Translations under genes and position numbers: made by a program
The notes under the pieces: model-generated
Database searches by the model: none
Told to the model about the DNA's origin: nothing
The model's input: only the letters and a program-made list of their open reading frames with translations
From: Paludisphaera mucosa
GTDB taxonomy: Bacteria > Planctomycetota > Planctomycetia > Isosphaerales > Isosphaeraceae
Assembly (NCBI RefSeq): GCF_029589435.1
Contig: NZ_JARRAG010000002.1
Coordinates: forward strand, 744,001-808,000
Length of the DNA: 64,000 bases
Reading direction: 5' to 3'
In this document: piece by piece, positions 53,910 through 60,961 of the stretch
How the letters are laid out: every line of letters begins with the position of its first letter
How positions within the stretch are numbered: position 1 is the first letter of the stretch

Positions 53910-54932
53910 TCAGAGGGCGTCGGAGCTGATGATCTCGCCGCCCTGGGTCGTGCTGAGGGCCCGCCACGACTCGATGTTGACCGAGTCCTTGACGTACCGG
54001 ACGCTGCCGTCGGCGAGCACCGTGTTGACGCCCCCCGGGTGCCGGCTGCGGGCCCCGTAGGTGTCGCCGTTGATCGCCGGGGTCGTGTCGCCGGTATAGG
54101 CCGGCGCCGCCGTGTTGCGGAACTTGCACGGCGGGTTGTTGCTGAAGGGATAGGCGCAGTAGTTGGCGTCGTTCAGCATGTCGGGCTGCTTCGAGTTGGG
54201 CCCGAGGTAGGTCGCATAGCCGCACGAGGAGCCGTACTGGATGAAGCCGCGAAGGTCGGTCTTCGTCCCGTTGACCTTGCCCTGGACCGTCTCCGACAGC
54301 AGCATCGTGTTGCTGGTGCCGTCGCTGATGCTGGAGATGTTGTAGGTCGAGGCGAACGACTGGGCCGGGGCCGTGCCGATCTTGATCCACGAGAACGGCG
54401 CGCCCAGGAAGATCAGGCCGTTGTAGGTGGCGCAGCAGTAGGTCGCGTCCTTGATCTGGAACAGGCCGGTGCCGGTGTTGCCGAAGTTCGCCACGTAGTT
54501 GCCCGAGGGGACGCCGCTGAGCGGGGCGACCGGCTCGTCGCTGGGGCACTGCATCGAGTTGATCCGGGCCGTCGTCGCCGTGGAATTCTCGGGGCTGAGG
54601 TACCCCATCTGGGGGACCGTGACGTTCGACCCCATGAAGTTGAACGCGTTGTAGATGCCCCCCTGTTCCATGAACGACAGGGAGTAGTGGTACCACGTGC
54701 CCCAGCCGACGTAGCGGGCGCCCGGCGGGAACGAGCCCAGGGCGTCGTGGTAGTTCTGCAGGGCGAGGCCGAGCTGCTTCAGGTTGTTCGTGCACTGGAT
54801 GCGGCGAGCCGCTTCGCGCGCCGACTGCACGGCCGGGAGGAGCAGGGCGATCAGGACCGCGATGATCGCGATGACGACGAGGAGCTCGATCAGGGTGAAC
54901 GCTCGGCGCAGCGAGGCACGGCAACGTGCCAT
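53910..54932 (-). CDS. DUF1559 prepilin-like protein
   Basis: 340 aa with a type IV pilin/type II pseudopilin N-terminus: [36 protein letters not shown], where a prepilin peptidase would cut before the F. The DUF1559 body follows ([28 protein letters not shown]) and ends with [26 protein letters not shown]. The family is expanded to dozens of copies in planctomycetes and probably forms surface or periplasmic fibres. GGAGGTGTCTC upstream of the ATG is a good ribosome binding site, and a promoter lies at 55079-55107. Confidence 0.95.
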
Positions 54933-55078
54933 GAGACACCTCCGTTGGAGATCACGATTTTGGAGTGTAGAGGTTCGAGGGCGCGGGCGAGGCGGCCGCG
55001 CCGGCCGGGGGCCGGTCGAGGCCGGATGAGGGAAAGCGGGACCGTGCGGGGGCGCGCCCCGCCGTCCCGGAGGGCTTC

Positions 55079-55107
55079 ATTACACCGAAGATCCTAGGAG
55101 AATGCAA
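55079..55107 (-). promoter_or_regulatory. Promoter of the DUF1559 operon
   Basis: Minus strand TTGCAT (55107-55102), 17-bp spacer, TGTAAT (55084-55079). The spacer contains the palindrome TCCTAGGA (55092-55099), a possible repressor site. The leader would be about 140 nt. Confidence 0.5.
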
Positions 55108-55173
55108 GGGACCACCCCGGCATTCGCTGTCATCTATACATTCCGATCATGGGCCGGGCCCGCGGGCGAGGGC

Positions 55174-56501
55174 TCAGGCGGCCGGGCGGAGGGGCAGGCG
55201 GATGGTGACGAGCAGGCCGGGCCGGGCGTCGGCGGCGGCGATGGATCCGCCGTGGAGGTCCACGGCGCGGCGGGCGATGGCCAGGCCCAGGCCGACGCCG
55301 CCGCTGGCCCGGCTGCGATCGTCCTCGATGCGGAAGAAGGGCTTGAAGATGTCGGCCAGGTGGGCCTCCGGGACCCCCTCGCCGTGGTCGCGGACGGCGA
55401 TCGTCGCCCCGGCCGCGTCCGAGCGCAGCGAGACGTCGACGGCCGACCCCTCGGGCGCGTGGCGGACCGCGTTGCGCAGGACGTTCTCGACGGCCCGGCG
55501 GATCAGCTCGGGGTCGCCCGCGACGGCGACCGGGGCGTCGATCCAGAGGTCCAGCCGGCAGCCCTTGGCCTCGGCCTCGACGGCGCAGGCGTCGACCAGG
55601 TCGTCGAGCAGGTCGTCGAGCCGGACCTCGTCGCGGCGGCGGGCGTGGGGGTCCTCCTCGGCCGAGTTGAGCCGGAGCAGCTCGTCGACCAGGGTCGAGA
55701 GCCGGTCGGCCTCCTTCTTGATCCGCTCCATCGCCGTCTCGCGGTCGCCGGCGCGGCCCAGCCGGACGGCCAGGCCCAGCCGGGTCAGGGGCGAGCGCAG
55801 CTCGTGGGAGACGTCCTGGATCAGCCGCCGCTCGGCCGCCATCAACGACTCGATCCGGTGCGCCATCAGGTCGAACGAGCGGGCCAGCTCGCCGATCTCG
55901 TCGCGGCGGGTCGAGCCGATCCGGGTCGTCAGCTCGCCCTTGCCGAACTCGTCCACGGCCCGCCGCAGCCGCCGCAGGGGCCGCACCAGGTGGACGGCCA
56001 GGGCGTAGATCAGGGCCAGGACGAGCAGCAGGATCCAGGCGTAGTACGGCAGGGTCTGGAACCAGGGGAACCGCATGCGGGGCAACGCCACGAACCGCAG
56101 GCCGTCGGCCGTGGGGGGGCTGACGAGCACGGGGGGCCCGCCGCCGAGGGGGGCGGCCTGCGGCCCGGCGAGTCCCCGCCGCCGTGGGGCCCGCGGCCCC
56201 GCGCGAGGACGTCGCCGCGGTCGCGGCCGTCGACCAGGTCGCGGCCGCGGGCGTCGACGAGGAAGTGCTCGCCCTCGAACGAGGCCCCCATCTCGGCGAG
56301 GTAGGCCCGCAGGCCCTCGGGGCCGCCGTCGCGGAAGGCCCGCGCGGCACCGTCGCGCTGGAGCCTGATGATGCCGTGGAAGAACCGGGTCTCCGCCGAC
56401 CGCGACTCGGAGAGGTACCAGAAGGTGGCGACGAACCCGATCGACGAGAGGGCGACCGTCGCCGCCGCCCAGGCCAGGATCTTGGAGTAGATCGACCTCA
56501 T
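55174..56501 (-). CDS. Sensor histidine kinase, interrupted by a frameshift
   Basis: Two-component sensor whose start (ATG 56501) overlaps the response regulator stop as ATGA. TM1 is LAWAAATVALSSIGFVATFWYL, followed by an extracytoplasmic sensor part (FFHGIIRLQRDGAARAFRDGGPEGLRAYLAEMGASFEGEHFLVDARGRDLVDG). Near 56120-56185 this frame turns into Arg/Pro/Ser nonsense (and stops at 56010), while another frame takes over with LAGPQAAPLGGGPPVLV, TM2 (YYAWILLLVLALIYALAV), HAMP, DHp box (DVSHELRSPLTRL) and ATPase boxes (ENVLRNAVRHAPEG, DHGEGVPE, GVGLGLAIA) down to 55174. One lost base explains it. Without correction only the part from a GTG at 56130 can be read. Confidence 0.85.
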
Positions 56502-57238
56502 CGCGGCGCCTGGTCCTCGGGGTCGGAACGGAACAGGTAGCCCGCGCCCCGGACGGTCCGGACGGCCGCCCCCAGCGGGCCGAGCTTCTTGCGGAGCCGG
56601 CTGACGTGGACGTCGATGGCGCGGTCGAAGGGGGTGCTGCGGCGGTGGTACAGGGCCGCGGTCAGCTCGTCGCGCGAGACGATCCGCCCGGCGGCCCGGA
56701 CGAGGTATTCGAGGATCTCGTACTCGAACGTGGTGGTCGCCACGACCTCGCCGCCGACGCGGACCTCGCGCGCCGTGGGGATCAGGCGGATCCCCTCGGC
56801 GTCGAGCGGGGCGACGGGCTGGGGCGCGCGGCCGACGCGGCGGAGCACGGCGCGGACGCGGGCCAGCAGCTCGTCGGGGTCGAACGGCTTGGGGACGTAG
56901 TCGTCGGCCCCCGCCCCCAGGCCCGCCAGCCGGTCGGCCTTGGCGGAGCGCGCCGTCAGCATGATGACCGGGACCTGGCTCCGCCGCCGCAGCAGCCGCA
57001 GCAGCTCGAAGCCGTCCAGGCCGGGCATCATCACGTCGAGCAGGACCAGGTCGCGGTCGGAGTCGAGGGCCGCGCCCAGGCCGCGGCGGCCGTCGTTGGC
57101 CGTCTCCAGCCGCATCCCCTCCTGGGCGAAGAACTCGCGCAGCAGGTCGCACAGCTCCAGGTCGTCGTCGATCAGGAGGATCGACGGGCTCGCCGCGGCG
57201 TCGTCGTCGGCTCGCGTGTCGGTCGTGGCGTCGATCAT
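56498..57238 (-). CDS. OmpR/PhoB-family response regulator
   Basis: 246 aa. The receiver domain has the acidic pair IDDD, phospho-acceptor Asp68 in LLDVMMPGLDG, the Thr in IMLTARS and Lys in PKPFDPDEL. The C-terminal winged-helix DNA-binding domain is VGGEVVATTTFEYEILEYLVRAAGRIVSRDELTAALY, then RAIDVHVSRLRKKLGPLGAAVRTVRGAGYLF. It closely follows the CpxR/PhoB plan. It is translationally coupled to the kinase and 32 bp downstream of the DUF4956 gene, so it may be induced with the CotH and DUF4956 genes. Confidence 0.95.
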   Translation of the reverse strand: MIDATTDTRADDDAAASPSILLIDDDLELCDLLREFFAQEGMRLETANDGRRGLGAALDSDRDLVLLDVMMPGLDGFELLRLLRRRSQVPVIMLTARSAKADRLAGLGAGADDYVPKPFDPDELLARVRAVLRRVGRAPQPVAPLDAEGIRLIPTAREVRVGGEVVATTTFEYEILEYLVRAAGRIVSRDELTAALYHRRSTPFDRAIDVHVSRLRKKLGPLGAAVRTVRGAGYLFRSDPEDQAPR

Positions 57239-57270
57239 GTTTCCGGGCCTCGCCCCGTCCGGGCCGGCGG

Positions 57271-57957
57271 TCAGTCGGAGGATCGATCCGAGCGGCGGAG
57301 CTCCACGCCCTCGACGCCCGGCGTCTGGTTCAGCTCGGCCGCCGCCTGGACGGGCGACGACTCGGGCCGCAGGCGGACGCGGTACGTCAGGTCGATCGAG
57401 GCCCCCTGGCGGGCCGTCTCGACCGAGAGCAGCGTCGCTCGGACGGCGAAGGCCGCGAGCAGCTGGTCGGCCGCGGCGCGGACGTTCTGGCCGGCGGCGA
57501 GGCGGATCTTCATGTCGACCTCCACGCCCGCCCAGCCCGAGTTTTTCCGGGGCGGCCAGAGCAGCGGGGCGGCGAGCCCCGTCACGCCCAGGCCCACCAG
57601 GGCCACCGTCAGGTTGTTGGCCCCCGCCGCCATCCCGACGACCACCGCCAGGATGACGAACGCGGTGTCCTGCGTGTCCTTGACCACCGTCCGGAAGCGG
57701 GCGACCGACAGCGCGCCGACCAGGCTGAAGGCCCGCGCCACGCTGTCGCCGATGACCTGGGTGGCGATGGCGATCGTCACCGAGAGCAGGACGAGCGTGG
57801 TCAGGAACGTCGCCTGCGCGTACTGCTCGCGGCGGGCCCAGCGGTAGATGCCCGCGACCACCCCTCCCAGCACCAGCGCCGAGGCGATCCGCCAGGCCAT
57901 CACGGCCCCCGGCAGCCCCTGGTTGTTCGACAACGACTCGCTCATCCAGGACGGCAT
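57271..57957 (-). CDS. DUF4956 membrane protein
   Basis: 228 aa with three or four helices (IASALVLGGVVAGIYRWA, FLTTLVLLSVTIAIATQVI, FVILAVVVGMAAGANNLTVALVGLGVTGLAAPLLW) and the family hallmark GALSVARFRTVVKDTQDTAFVILAVVVGMAAGA. A soluble ACT-like C-terminal domain follows (EVDMKIRLAAGQNVRAAADQLLAAFAVRATLLSVE). DUF4956 genes are often found beside CotH and VTC-domain (polyphosphate polymerase) genes; CotH is directly upstream here, but no VTC gene is visible. Function unknown. Confidence 0.88.
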   Translation of the reverse strand: MPSWMSESLSNNQGLPGAVMAWRIASALVLGGVVAGIYRWARREQYAQATFLTTLVLLSVTIAIATQVIGDSVARAFSLVGALSVARFRTVVKDTQDTAFVILAVVVGMAAGANNLTVALVGLGVTGLAAPLLWPPRKNSGWAGVEVDMKIRLAAGQNVRAAADQLLAAFAVRATLLSVETARQGASIDLTYRVRLRPESSPVQAAAELNQTPGVEGVELRRSDRSSD

Positions 57958-58067
57958 CGCAAACCCCTCCGCCGCCGTCGCGGCGGTTCGACTCCTGCAA
58001 ACCTTGATCTCAATGTTATGCGGACCGCGTCCCGAAACGCCGTCATTTCGCGGACTTCGCCCGGGCT

Positions 58068-60449
58068 TTACCGGTACTCCGCCTTCTGCACGGCCGGCAG
58101 GCCCAGCAGGAACTTCCGGCGGGCGTCGGCGAAGGCCCGGAGGTTCATCCCGCCGCCGCCCGGCCCCCGGCCTCGCTGCGGCCCCTTGGCCGCGGGGCCC
58201 TCGGCCCCGGGCTGGGAGGACGTGGCGGCCTGGTACGCGGCGTAGGTCGAGAGCTTCTTCGCGTCGGCCTCGATCTCGACGTCGATGAGGTCCTTGAACT
58301 TCTGCACGACCGGCCCGAGCGTCTTCCAGTCGAGATCCTTCTCGGCGATCGCCTTCACGTAGCCGAGATACTTCGCCTTCAGCTCGGGGACCGCCAGCAG
58401 CTTGCTCCGCAAGGGCGTGCGCGTGCCGCCGGCGGCGTCGAGCCCGATCAACGGGTCGAGTTCGACGTTCCCGCCGCCCGGCCCGCCGGGACCTCCCGGA
58501 CGACCGGGACCGCCTCCCGGAGGGCCGCCAGGCCCACCCGGGCCGCCGGGGCCGAAGCCCGGCCCGCCCCCCGGAGGAGGCCCGCCGGCGAAATCAGGAC
58601 CACCGCCCGGAGGGCCGCCGCCGGGGCCACGGCCCGGGGGGCCGCCGGGACCGCCGCCAGGTCCGAATCCGGGACCGCCCCCCTGAGGACCGCCCCGCCC
58701 GCCGCCGCGACGGCCGAAGCCCCCCGGCCCGCCCGGGCCGCCGAACATCATCGCCGGCTGGAAGGCCTCGTTCATGTCGTGGGGGACGACGTGGAACTTC
58801 CCCTTCGGGTCGAGGTAGATGCTGTAGTCGCTGGCGCGGGTCCAGTAGCCGTCGCCGTTGATCAGGGCGTTGTCCAGGGCGAGGAACCGCAGCACGCCGT
58901 CGACGTCGAGGATCGGCTCGAGGGCCTTCTCCAGCCGGTCGGTCGGCGTCTCGTCGAGCGTCCGGCAGAGGGCGACCAGCGCCGTCCAGGCGACGTCCTC
59001 CCCCTTCTTGGACGACTTCAGCTCGTAGCGCTGCTTGTAGGGGGCGAGGTCCTCGCCGTGGTAGCCGAGGCCGCCGTCGGCACCGGGGTTCCCGGGGACC
59101 TTCCAGCGGGCCCCTTCCTCGGTCCCGTAGTTCTCGGCCAGGAATTTCTTGTCGAACTGCTGGACGTTGGCGTACACGCCCCAGTTCTCGCCGTTGATGA
59201 CCACCCGGACGAAGTTCGCCTTGGGGGCGGGGATGTAGCGGCGGGCGATCGTCGAGTAGAGCACGGTGTGAAGGAACGTCGCGTCCTCGTGGGCGTTGAG
59301 GAGGTTGAGCGTCTTGTAGCCCTCCAGCCGCCGGTCCGGGTCGGTGAAGTCGACCGAGACGTTGAGCGACCGCTTGCGGCCCTCGGGGACGCTGAAGTAC
59401 GACGACTGGCCGCGGAAGTGGACCCCCACGCCCGGGATCACGCCGCCGTCGACCGTGAGGGTGGCGGGGACCTCGACGTCCGACTTGTAGAAGGCGGCCA
59501 TCTGCGACTCCCAGGCGTCGTCCTCGAAGTCGAGGAAGAGGGTGCGGAGCACGCCCGGGTCGTACAGCGGCTTGCCGGGGAAGGTAACGACCTCGGACTT
59601 GGCGACCTTCGCGCCCGGGCTCGCCGGCCCCTGCTCGCCGCCGCCGAAGCCCGGAGGCCCGAAGCCCGGCCCGCGACGGCCGCCGGGGCCGCCGCGTCCG
59701 CCCGGCTGCGACTTCTCGCCCGCGACGGCGGCCTGGCGCTCGTCGCCGTTCAGGCGGCCGTCGCCGTCCTTGTCGTACTTCTTGACCAGCTTGCGCTCGC
59801 CGCCGCCCATCGGCCCGCCGGGCCCGCCCATGGGACCGCCGCGACCGCCCGGACCCCCGGGGCCGAAGCCCGGCGGGCCGGGGAGGCTGGAGTTCACGGC
59901 CGCCGCGAGGGCCTCGGCGTCGAGGGAGCCCTTCTTGTCGGCGTCGCCCTGGCGGACGAAACGCACGGCGGCCGCGCCGGCTTCTTTCGGGGTCAGGCGG
60001 CCGTCCTTGTCGGCGTCGGCCGCCTCCAGCAGCATGGGGCCGAAGAACGTGCCGGGGCCGAAGTCCGGGTCGTCCGGGGCCGGCATCCCGGGGGGGCCCG
60101 ACATCCGCCGGTTCAGGGCGCGTCCCAGCGCCTGGGCGTCGAGCGAGCCCTTCTTGTCGGCCTCGGCGACGAACTTCGCGGCGGCCTTGCCGGCCTCCTC
60201 GGGCGAGAGCCGGCCGTCCCGGTCGGCGTCCGCCTCTTCGAGGAGCATGCCCGCCATGAACCCGCCGGGGCCGAAGCCCCCCGGGCCGCCGGGGGGCGGG
60301 CCGAACCCGTCGGGCGGGCCCGGCTCCTGGGATCGCCCCAGGGCCTCGGGATCGAACTCGGGCGCCGGGAACGTCGCCCCCAGGATGGCGAGCCCGACGG
60401 CCGCGCAGGCGCCGGTGGACATGAGGATTCGCAGGATGGCCGTCGGCAT
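58068..60449 (-). CDS. CotH kinase family protein with EF-hands
   Basis: 793-aa exported protein (signal peptide ILRILMSTGACAAVGLAILGATF). Three EF-hand-like calcium loops stand in the first 240 residues (DADRDGRLSPEE near 75, DADKDGRLTPKE, DKDGDGRLNGDE) between Gly/Pro-rich linkers. The CotH kinase domain follows: VHFRGQSSYFSVPEGRKRSLNVSVDF, LLNAHEDATFLHTVLYSTIARRYIPAPKANFVRVVINGENWGVYANVQQFDKKFL, and FLALDNALINGDGYWTRASDYSIYLDPKGKFHVVPHDMNEAF with the DxN/HD metal residues. A 90-residue collagen-like GGPGGPPGG stretch interrupts before a helical C-terminus. GAGGGGGGAATC precedes the ATG. CotH enzymes phosphorylate proteins; the target here is unknown. Confidence 0.93.
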   Translation of the reverse strand: MPTAILRILMSTGACAAVGLAILGATFPAPEFDPEALGRSQEPGPPDGFGPPPGGPGGFGPGGFMAGMLLEEADADRDGRLSPEEAGKAAAKFVAEADKKGSLDAQALGRALNRRMSGPPGMPAPDDPDFGPGTFFGPMLLEAADADKDGRLTPKEAGAAAVRFVRQGDADKKGSLDAEALAAAVNSSLPGPPGFGPGGPGGRGGPMGGPGGPMGGGERKLVKKYDKDGDGRLNGDERQAAVAGEKSQPGGRGGPGGRRGPGFGPPGFGGGEQGPASPGAKVAKSEVVTFPGKPLYDPGVLRTLFLDFEDDAWESQMAAFYKSDVEVPATLTVDGGVIPGVGVHFRGQSSYFSVPEGRKRSLNVSVDFTDPDRRLEGYKTLNLLNAHEDATFLHTVLYSTIARRYIPAPKANFVRVVINGENWGVYANVQQFDKKFLAENYGTEEGARWKVPGNPGADGGLGYHGEDLAPYKQRYELKSSKKGEDVAWTALVALCRTLDETPTDRLEKALEPILDVDGVLRFLALDNALINGDGYWTRASDYSIYLDPKGKFHVVPHDMNEAFQPAMMFGGPGGPGGFGRRGGGRGGPQGGGPGFGPGGGPGGPPGRGPGGGPPGGGPDFAGGPPPGGGPGFGPGGPGGPGGPPGGGPGRPGGPGGPGGGNVELDPLIGLDAAGGTRTPLRSKLLAVPELKAKYLGYVKAIAEKDLDWKTLGPVVQKFKDLIDVEIEADAKKLSTYAAYQAATSSQPGAEGPAAKGPQRGRGPGGGGMNLRAFADARRKFLLGLPAVQKAEYR

Positions 60450-60574
60450 GATTCCCCCCTCGGATGGTCGACCTTCGCGGGCGTCGCCTCTTCCCCTCCA
60501 ACGCTCCTGGTCGGATTATGTGGGATTCGAGAAGCTCGGTCCGTAACAGAATGTAAACACCCCGGAGGACGGCC

Positions 60575-60961
60575 ATGCGGCTGGGGCGAATCCACCACGC
60601 GGCGATCATCTGCTCGGACTACGACCGCTCGCGGCGGTTCTACGTCGAGACCCTCGGCCTGGCCGTCGTCCGCGAGGTCCACCGCCGCGAGCGCGACTCG
60701 TACAAGCTCGACCTGGCCCTCCCCGACGGCGCCCAGATCGAGCTCTTCTCCTTCCCGAGCCCGCCGCCGCGGCCGAGCTACCCCGAGGCCCGGGGCCTGC
60801 GCCACCTGGCCTTCGAGACCCCCGACCTCGACGAGGCCGTCCGCGACCTGGAGGCCCGCGGCGTGATCGTCGAGCCCGTGCGCGTCGACGAGCACACGGG
60901 CAAGCGCTTCACCTTCTTCGCCGACCCCGACGGCCTGCCGCTGGAGCTTTACGAGGCCTGA
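60575..60961 (+). CDS. VOC family protein (glyoxalase-like)
   Basis: 128 aa, preceded by GGAGGACGGCC. The vicinal-oxygen-chelate fold is clear: RIHHAAIICSDYDRSRRFYVETLGLAVVREVHRRERDSYKLDLALPDGAQIELFSF, then GLRHLAFETPDLDEAVRDLEARGVIVEPVRVDEHTGKRFTFFADPDGLPLELYEA. The four metal ligands, His near 7-8, Glu in IELF, His in LRHLAF and Glu in LELYE, are all present. It resembles the YaeR/SMU1112c lactoylglutathione-lyase-like subgroup. The substrate is uncertain. It is divergent from the CotH gene. Confidence 0.92.
   Translation: MRLGRIHHAAIICSDYDRSRRFYVETLGLAVVREVHRRERDSYKLDLALPDGAQIELFSFPSPPPRPSYPEARGLRHLAFETPDLDEAVRDLEARGVIVEPVRVDEHTGKRFTFFADPDGLPLELYEA

Follow-up and report, generated by a model that had tools for sequence, protein, structure and literature searches.

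A CpxRA-like regulator–kinase pair linked to CotH and DUF4956 genes, with a conserved CpxR-type box upstream, in Paludisphaera

Variants of the Bacillus subtilis kinase CotH at positions D228 and D251 are catalytically inactive, as reported in the available excerpts of PMC7821199. A CotH gene near VTC genes has been reported for a Clostridium locus in partially available literature. For S. intermedius, the accessible parts of PMC12345266 describe that, in 10% ASM, deletion of the CotH-like gene or of the MgtC/ACT gene lowered aggregation to less than half; the same deletions changed the levels of Pel, which was still made, and section 20, in its accessible part, does not name the polymerase gene among those with an aggregation effect. 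The binding site of the regulator CpxR is given in an excerpt of PMC5063474 as GTAAA-N4-8-GTAAA. Here we describe a locus which resembles these systems in part, a run of genes encoding a CotH-type kinase, a DUF4956 protein, an OmpR-type response regulator and a histidine kinase in a stretch of 64,000 nucleotides of Paludisphaera mucosa (contig NZ_JARRAG010000002.1, positions 744,001 to 808,000; hereafter the window). New here is a CpxR-type box with a -10-like hexamer ahead of CotH, which is found in seven of seven linked loci and in none of six unlinked ones; no paper joining CotH and CpxR was found in a literature search with most subscription journals outside its coverage.

The window belongs to an 8.2-Mb genome (labelled G000) of the soil-dwelling genus Paludisphaera, family Isosphaeraceae, order Isosphaerales, class Planctomycetia. 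Its coordinates and a Pfam scan confirmed the four-gene run of the initial annotation: CotH, DUF4956, the OmpR-type regulator and a HAMP-HisKA-HATPase kinase follow one another on the minus strand, with spacings of 110, 32 and -4 bp derived from the coordinates. The genome contains a single CotH and a single match to the window DUF4956. The z score of -1.98 for an RNA fold in the gap between CotH and DUF4956 is a modest signal and was not used. The analysis comprised the computation of gene content, gene order, linkage, the conserved box, two aligned Asp residues and the absence of VTC.

For the comparison with relatives, 45 genomes of the order, all from one family, and 248 genomes of the class were sampled. 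DUF4956 relatives were detected in 14 of the order genomes, CotH in 21 and VTC in none, the corresponding numbers for the class being 91, 138 and 66. Fifteen DUF4956 loci from the order were compared with 78 from outside it (one of which was joined from two neighboring pieces), and the neighboring genes were typed with profiles built from the same loci. CotH was counted up to 4.5 kb away on the same strand, VTC up to about 6 kb, and the two-component pair if a regulator within 3 kb and then a kinase within 4 kb lay downstream on the same strand; all these locus counts are lower bounds, since many loci are truncated where their contig stops and the CotH profile captures only a narrow range. Within the order, CotH was present at 14 of the 15 loci and regulator plus kinase at seven, and VTC was absent from all 15, in agreement with the VTC-less locus described initially. 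Outside the order, VTC was found at 50 of 78 loci, CotH at 47, both at 31 and neither at 12. None of the 78 loci, including 16 with CotH and without VTC, carried a regulator and kinase downstream of DUF4956. The seven linked loci are those of all six Paludisphaera genomes (the window genome and five more) and of one genome of another genus (G024). The expected linkage of two-component genes in relatives was thereby recovered, and this gene order is conserved beyond chance.

The box (GTAACAGAATGTAAA, 60543..60557 on the plus strand, reading TTTACATTCTGTTAC on the operon strand) is located upstream of CotH, between this gene and a divergent glyoxalase gene. It is the sole match to GTAAM-N5-GTAAA with 0-1 mismatch in the 64 kb (0.08 expected; eight of 100 shuffles had one). 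At this tolerance a box was present in all seven linked loci, five of them exact, and it was found neither in the six unlinked loci of the order nor in the upstream regions of 57 CotH genes from other parts of the class. This comparison omits two loci, L025 with a rearranged CotH fragment and L031 with a partial DUF4956 at a contig end. The window box has the form GTAAC-N5-GTAAA, one base from the published GTAAA form, and G024 alone carries an exact GTAAA-N5-GTAAA; further from the element, its upstream DNA is at chance identity. When the linked loci were anchored on the box, mean column identity was 6.53 of 7 inside the box vs 3.61 in all other columns. The hexamer CATAAT (60515..60520, minus strand) follows 22 bp after the box, and nAnAAT is invariant at this distance in all seven loci. 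If this hexamer acts as a -10 element, the box centre would lie near -42, the region where OmpR-family activators bind. Two exact pattern matches occur in the 8.2-Mb genome, one of them being the CotH box; the other (L214 1501-1515, contig 3) precedes by about 70 bp a gene that looks TetR-like by eye. Independently of this, GTAAACCGCTGTAAA was encountered five times (L212, L216, L220, L221, L222) in three genomes of the genus and may belong to a repeated element.

A second predicted target operon emerged within the genus. In G028 an exact match to the original pattern lies upstream of a secreted-looking dioxygenase-like gene, which is followed by a gene encoding an EF-hand protein. With the pattern GTAAM-N5-GTAAM, a post hoc widening made after one-mismatch matches had been seen, a box in the same orientation was found 65-104 bp upstream of the dioxygenase-like gene in all six Paludisphaera genomes; the first upstream scan had ignored the strand, and the rescan with the widened pattern was strand-aware. 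These boxes are one or two bases from the published CpxR site. No exact match to the widened pattern was found at 24 dioxygenase loci outside the genus, where a single one-mismatch site was located at -205; the loci, one per genome, cover 30 of the 41 genomes in which the gene was matched. The dioxygenase-like family by itself was rejected as a marker of the signalling pair, as it occurs in 41 of the 45 order genomes, and the evidence used is the box in the genus together with the position in G008. In G008 four genes adjoin on one strand: the dioxygenase-like gene, one encoding an EF-hand protein and those of the orthologous regulator and kinase. The same predicted target is thus tied to the regulator by position in G008 and by the box in Paludisphaera. 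Among ten stretches, the EF-hand gene follows the dioxygenase-like gene in four of six Paludisphaera genomes (G000, G028, G032 and G029, the last matched by its EF-hand part only) as well as in G024, G038 and G008, and it was not found beside the gene in G030, G031 or at a more distant second copy in G000. The EF-hand protein of G000 reached 17.7 bits with the LTXXQ model, below the threshold of 24.3, and the family was unlisted for two others scanned.

The OmpR-family regulator is encoded at 56498..57238 on the minus strand. Among 96 families its best NCBIfam match is the CpxR equivalog with 183.5 bits, short of the cut-off of 341. The C-part of the kinase alone, which carries the HAMP, HisKA and HATPase domains (55174..56130, minus strand), matched two CpxA models best among 84 families (230.0 and 225.5 bits), short of the equivalog cut-offs of 800 or 486 bits. 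The N-part (56130..56501, minus strand), in which a first membrane helix and a sensor region were recognized by eye, begins 4 bp inside the regulator gene and matched no Pfam family. Its frame stays open to 56010 and differs from that of the C-part, and read from 56501 the whole stretch 55174-56501 contains seven stops. The initial annotation was thus right about the gene content and the 4-bp overlap with the regulator, and the single intact kinase frame that it assumed is not present in the window. The kinase is one frame in five of the seven linked loci (G032, G030, G029, G028 and G024). The break in the window lies within 56130-56180, near a C run, and that of G031 at a similar C run. It may represent an assembly error or phase-variable slippage; a length change in the C run, by sequencing or by slippage, seems simpler than a programmed frameshift. 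On the same strand, the kinase is followed by a DUF1559 pseudopilin-like gene (53910-54932 in the window) in all six Paludisphaera genomes.

The common gene order and the one conserved box with its -10-like element indicate that the signalling pair is probably tied in function to CotH and DUF4956. We consider it likely that the locus is a positively autoregulated, Cpx-like envelope-stress operon whose products include a CotH kinase destined for export and a membrane protein resembling MgtC. This reading is based on the linkage, on a box that tracks the linkage, on the best matches to CpxR and CpxA, on the published CpxR site and on the second target. The sensor kinase would monitor the envelope and phosphorylate the OmpR-type regulator, which would bind the GTAAM-N5-GTAAA box; in this scheme a single promoter drives CotH, and its -35 position comes directly after the box. 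Once bound, the regulator would raise transcription of cotH, DUF4956, regulator and kinase, and in Paludisphaera it would also raise that of the second operon, with its secreted dioxygenase-like gene and often an EF-hand gene. As output, CotH would be exported and would phosphorylate envelope proteins, and it would be accompanied by a membrane protein that resembles MgtC and contains an ACT-like domain. Binding, the direction of regulation, co-transcription, export, kinase activity, substrates and the signal are what we infer in this scheme.

Several observations weigh against this scheme. A sigma-70 scan of 54900-60700 called no promoter and did not flag the one proposed for CotH; because it missed this one as well, internal promoters cannot be judged from it. 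The kinase is frame-broken in the window genome and in G031, and the scores of both signalling proteins lie under the curated CpxR and CpxA cut-offs. Upstream of CotH, conserved columns continue beyond the box as far as about +26, and the box is therefore only part of the conserved element. The six Paludisphaera genomes together hold 15 exact pattern matches vs 13 for the reversed control; the frequency of the box is therefore uninformative, and its position is the evidence. Ahead of the dioxygenase-like gene, G028 alone matches the original pattern exactly, the other five genomes each deviating from it at one base, and G008 has the gene neighborhood without a box within one mismatch. G010, whose pair is closest to that of the genus, carries no box, and for unlinked pairs only two of 20 loci have a one-mismatch site within 450 bp of the regulator (background: six of 929 windows), by which count a box common to the whole two-component family is not shown. 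Moreover, the six genomes of the genus are related to one another. Finally, 12 of the 21 order genomes with an orthologous kinase have no DUF4956, so that the pair is not dedicated to CotH and DUF4956.

These orthologs were detected in the 45 order genomes with thresholds of E<=1e-60 for the kinase and E<=1e-50 for the regulator, the best 50 or 61 first-look candidates being scored in large genomes; the kinase was found in 21 genomes and the regulator in 26. The pair is one member of a broader group of envelope-type sensors and adjoins various envelope genes across the family. The tree of regulator and kinase separates the genus together with G010 from all other sequences (support 100) and places G024 with G008, G021 and others (91). 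CotH plus DUF4956 likewise show a split of 100 between G024 and the genus, in a tree whose inner nodes are weak. G024 is thus not sister to Paludisphaera in either tree, several nodes of which are weak, and the linkage in two lineages may go back to two origins or to an old linkage with losses. A rearranged locus was observed in G027 (contig 70, L025 6300-10600): a second DUF4956 copy and a CotH fragment are inverted there and flanked by a regulator with a broken kinase start and by a fragment of a kinase end. Four flanking gene families are common to L025 and the G037 locus.

The CotH-type kinase is encoded at 58068..60449 on the minus strand. It scored 123.8 bits with PF08757 (cut-off 23.8) and is predicted to be exported, as judged by eye from an N-terminal hydrophobic stretch. 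Its candidate catalytic residues Asp533 and Asp558, numbered from the coordinates, are matched in the alignment by a pair of Asp in Spore coat protein H (5jd9, E 1e-4), so the protein has both the domain match above cut-off and the two Asp expected of a CotH kinase. The two aligned Asp of 5jd9 are spaced by 23 residues, the same as D228 to D251, to which Asp533 and Asp558 would correspond residue by residue. Three EF-hand families lie above the Pfam cut-off, and the EF-hands of the initial annotation were found again as three canonical motifs on the minus strand with counted coordinates: DADRDGRLSPEE (60195..60230), DADKDGRLTPKE (59982..60017) and DKDGDGRLNGDE (59739..59774). A Gly/Pro-rich insert (residues 564-660; 58470..58760, minus strand) follows directly after the DMNEAF motif. 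It had been regarded as collagen-like, an assignment which we rejected: Gly occurs in each of the three registers (19/33, 17/32 and 18/32), a G-X-Y register is absent from the insert, and the longest strict Gly-X-Y run anywhere in CotH is six triplets.

The DUF4956 protein (57271..57957, minus strand) matched PF16316 with 40.7 bits (cut-off 30.6). A structure model from eight sequences consists of helices and a C-terminal beta-alpha-beta domain; its mean pLDDT is 63.4 and that of the C-part about 78, so that overall confidence is low and the C-part alone was usable. A membrane role is predicted for the helices. The top PDB match of the C-part is 2lqj, the C-terminal domain of MgtC (E 7.8e-4, TM-score 0.55 by target length), with further ACT and ferredoxin-like folds close behind on this low-confidence model. 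This match agrees with the description of SIR_1592 from S. intermedius as an MgtC-type membrane part of four transmembrane segments plus an ACT domain in the available excerpts of PMC12345266. We take SIR_1592 to be a DUF4956 protein, although the accessible text does not contain this name.

The pair could also be an independent envelope sensor which came to lie downstream of CotH and DUF4956 by an accident of descent and has its real targets elsewhere. Orthologous pairs indeed adjoin other genes, namely PMT/GT2/acyltransferase genes in G001, G002, G010 and G021 (one example of each was scanned) and F5 genes in six genomes. G005, G011 and G034 have CotH and DUF4956 and no kinase reaching E<=1e-60, and in G001 and G002 the pair sits elsewhere in the genome. 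An accidental neighborhood is nevertheless unlikely in our view, as the box ahead of CotH follows the linkage (7/7 vs 0/6) and the linkage recurs in a second, separate lineage. A different explanation, put forward in the initial annotation, is that the signalling pair took the place of a lost VTC polymerase. VTC is near most DUF4956 loci outside the order and near none inside, as this idea would have it. Yet VTC is missing from all 45 order genomes, whether they have the pair or not, and at 16 of 78 outside loci CotH occurs with neither VTC nor pair, so the loss of VTC is wider than the presence of the pair; a regulator pair also has no polymerase chemistry with which to substitute for VTC. 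Replacement is accordingly extremely improbable, and we reject it on these counts.

A calcium-responsive system, in which CotH and the co-regulated secreted protein would sense Ca2+ through their EF-hands and act back on the sensor kinase, appears quite improbable. It has a model in CpxP, which feeds back on CpxA. EF-hands are regular in CotH of the order, 12 of 13 full-length proteins beside DUF4956 having three canonical motifs and the remaining one two (the L025 fragment was omitted), and the second predicted operon with its EF-hand gene in four of six Paludisphaera genomes, together with the sub-threshold LTXXQ match in G000, keeps the idea alive. Against it, the motifs are present in CotH whether the pair is linked or not, which argues against a special tie between EF-hands and pair; outside the order, at least one motif also occurs in 38 of 57 CotH frames of the class. 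Two of the six genomes show no EF-hand gene at the dioxygenase, and that of G029 matches by its EF-hand part only. More speculatively, and doubtful in our opinion, Paludisphaera could possess a Cpx-type regulon in which both predicted operons can supply secreted EF-hand proteins, the LTxxQ-like one acting as a Ca2+-dependent gate on the sensor and CotH phosphorylating proteins outside the cytoplasm, the linkage having arisen more than once in a family devoid of VTC. The autoregulated, Cpx-like envelope-stress operon remains the reading that we favor as the simplest.

The locus provides a candidate regulator, promoter and regulon for CotH and DUF4956, a widespread pair in view of the 91 class genomes with DUF4956 relatives. 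It suggests that exported protein phosphorylation is part of the planctomycete envelope-stress response. In addition, CotH and DUF4956 are separable from the polyphosphate polymerase, as they persist in a family in whose 45 genomes VTC was not found.

We know of no spores in these bacteria. With the Bacillus spore-coat kinase CotH (excerpts of PMC7821199; 5jd9) the window CotH shares the family and two Asp, which align with a pair of D228/D251 spacing in the Bacillus protein; it differs in its predicted export, its EF-hands and the Gly/Pro-rich insert after the second Asp motif. The Pel clusters of Gram-positive bacteria, which according to the accessible parts of PMC7112168 and PMC12345266 contain CotH, a polyphosphate polymerase and DUF4956 accessory genes, have the clustering of CotH and DUF4956 in common with our locus, whereas here VTC is absent and a signalling pair lies within the run. 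Compared with CpxRA, the window proteins score under the curated cut-offs and the kinase N-part lacks a Pfam match. The likeness to CpxRA consists in the best curated-model matches of regulator and kinase, in the same type of box and perhaps, in some genomes, in a co-regulated small secreted protein with putative LTxxQ-like motifs. This protein has EF-hands here, and the predicted targets are CotH with DUF4956 and the dioxygenase-like operon.

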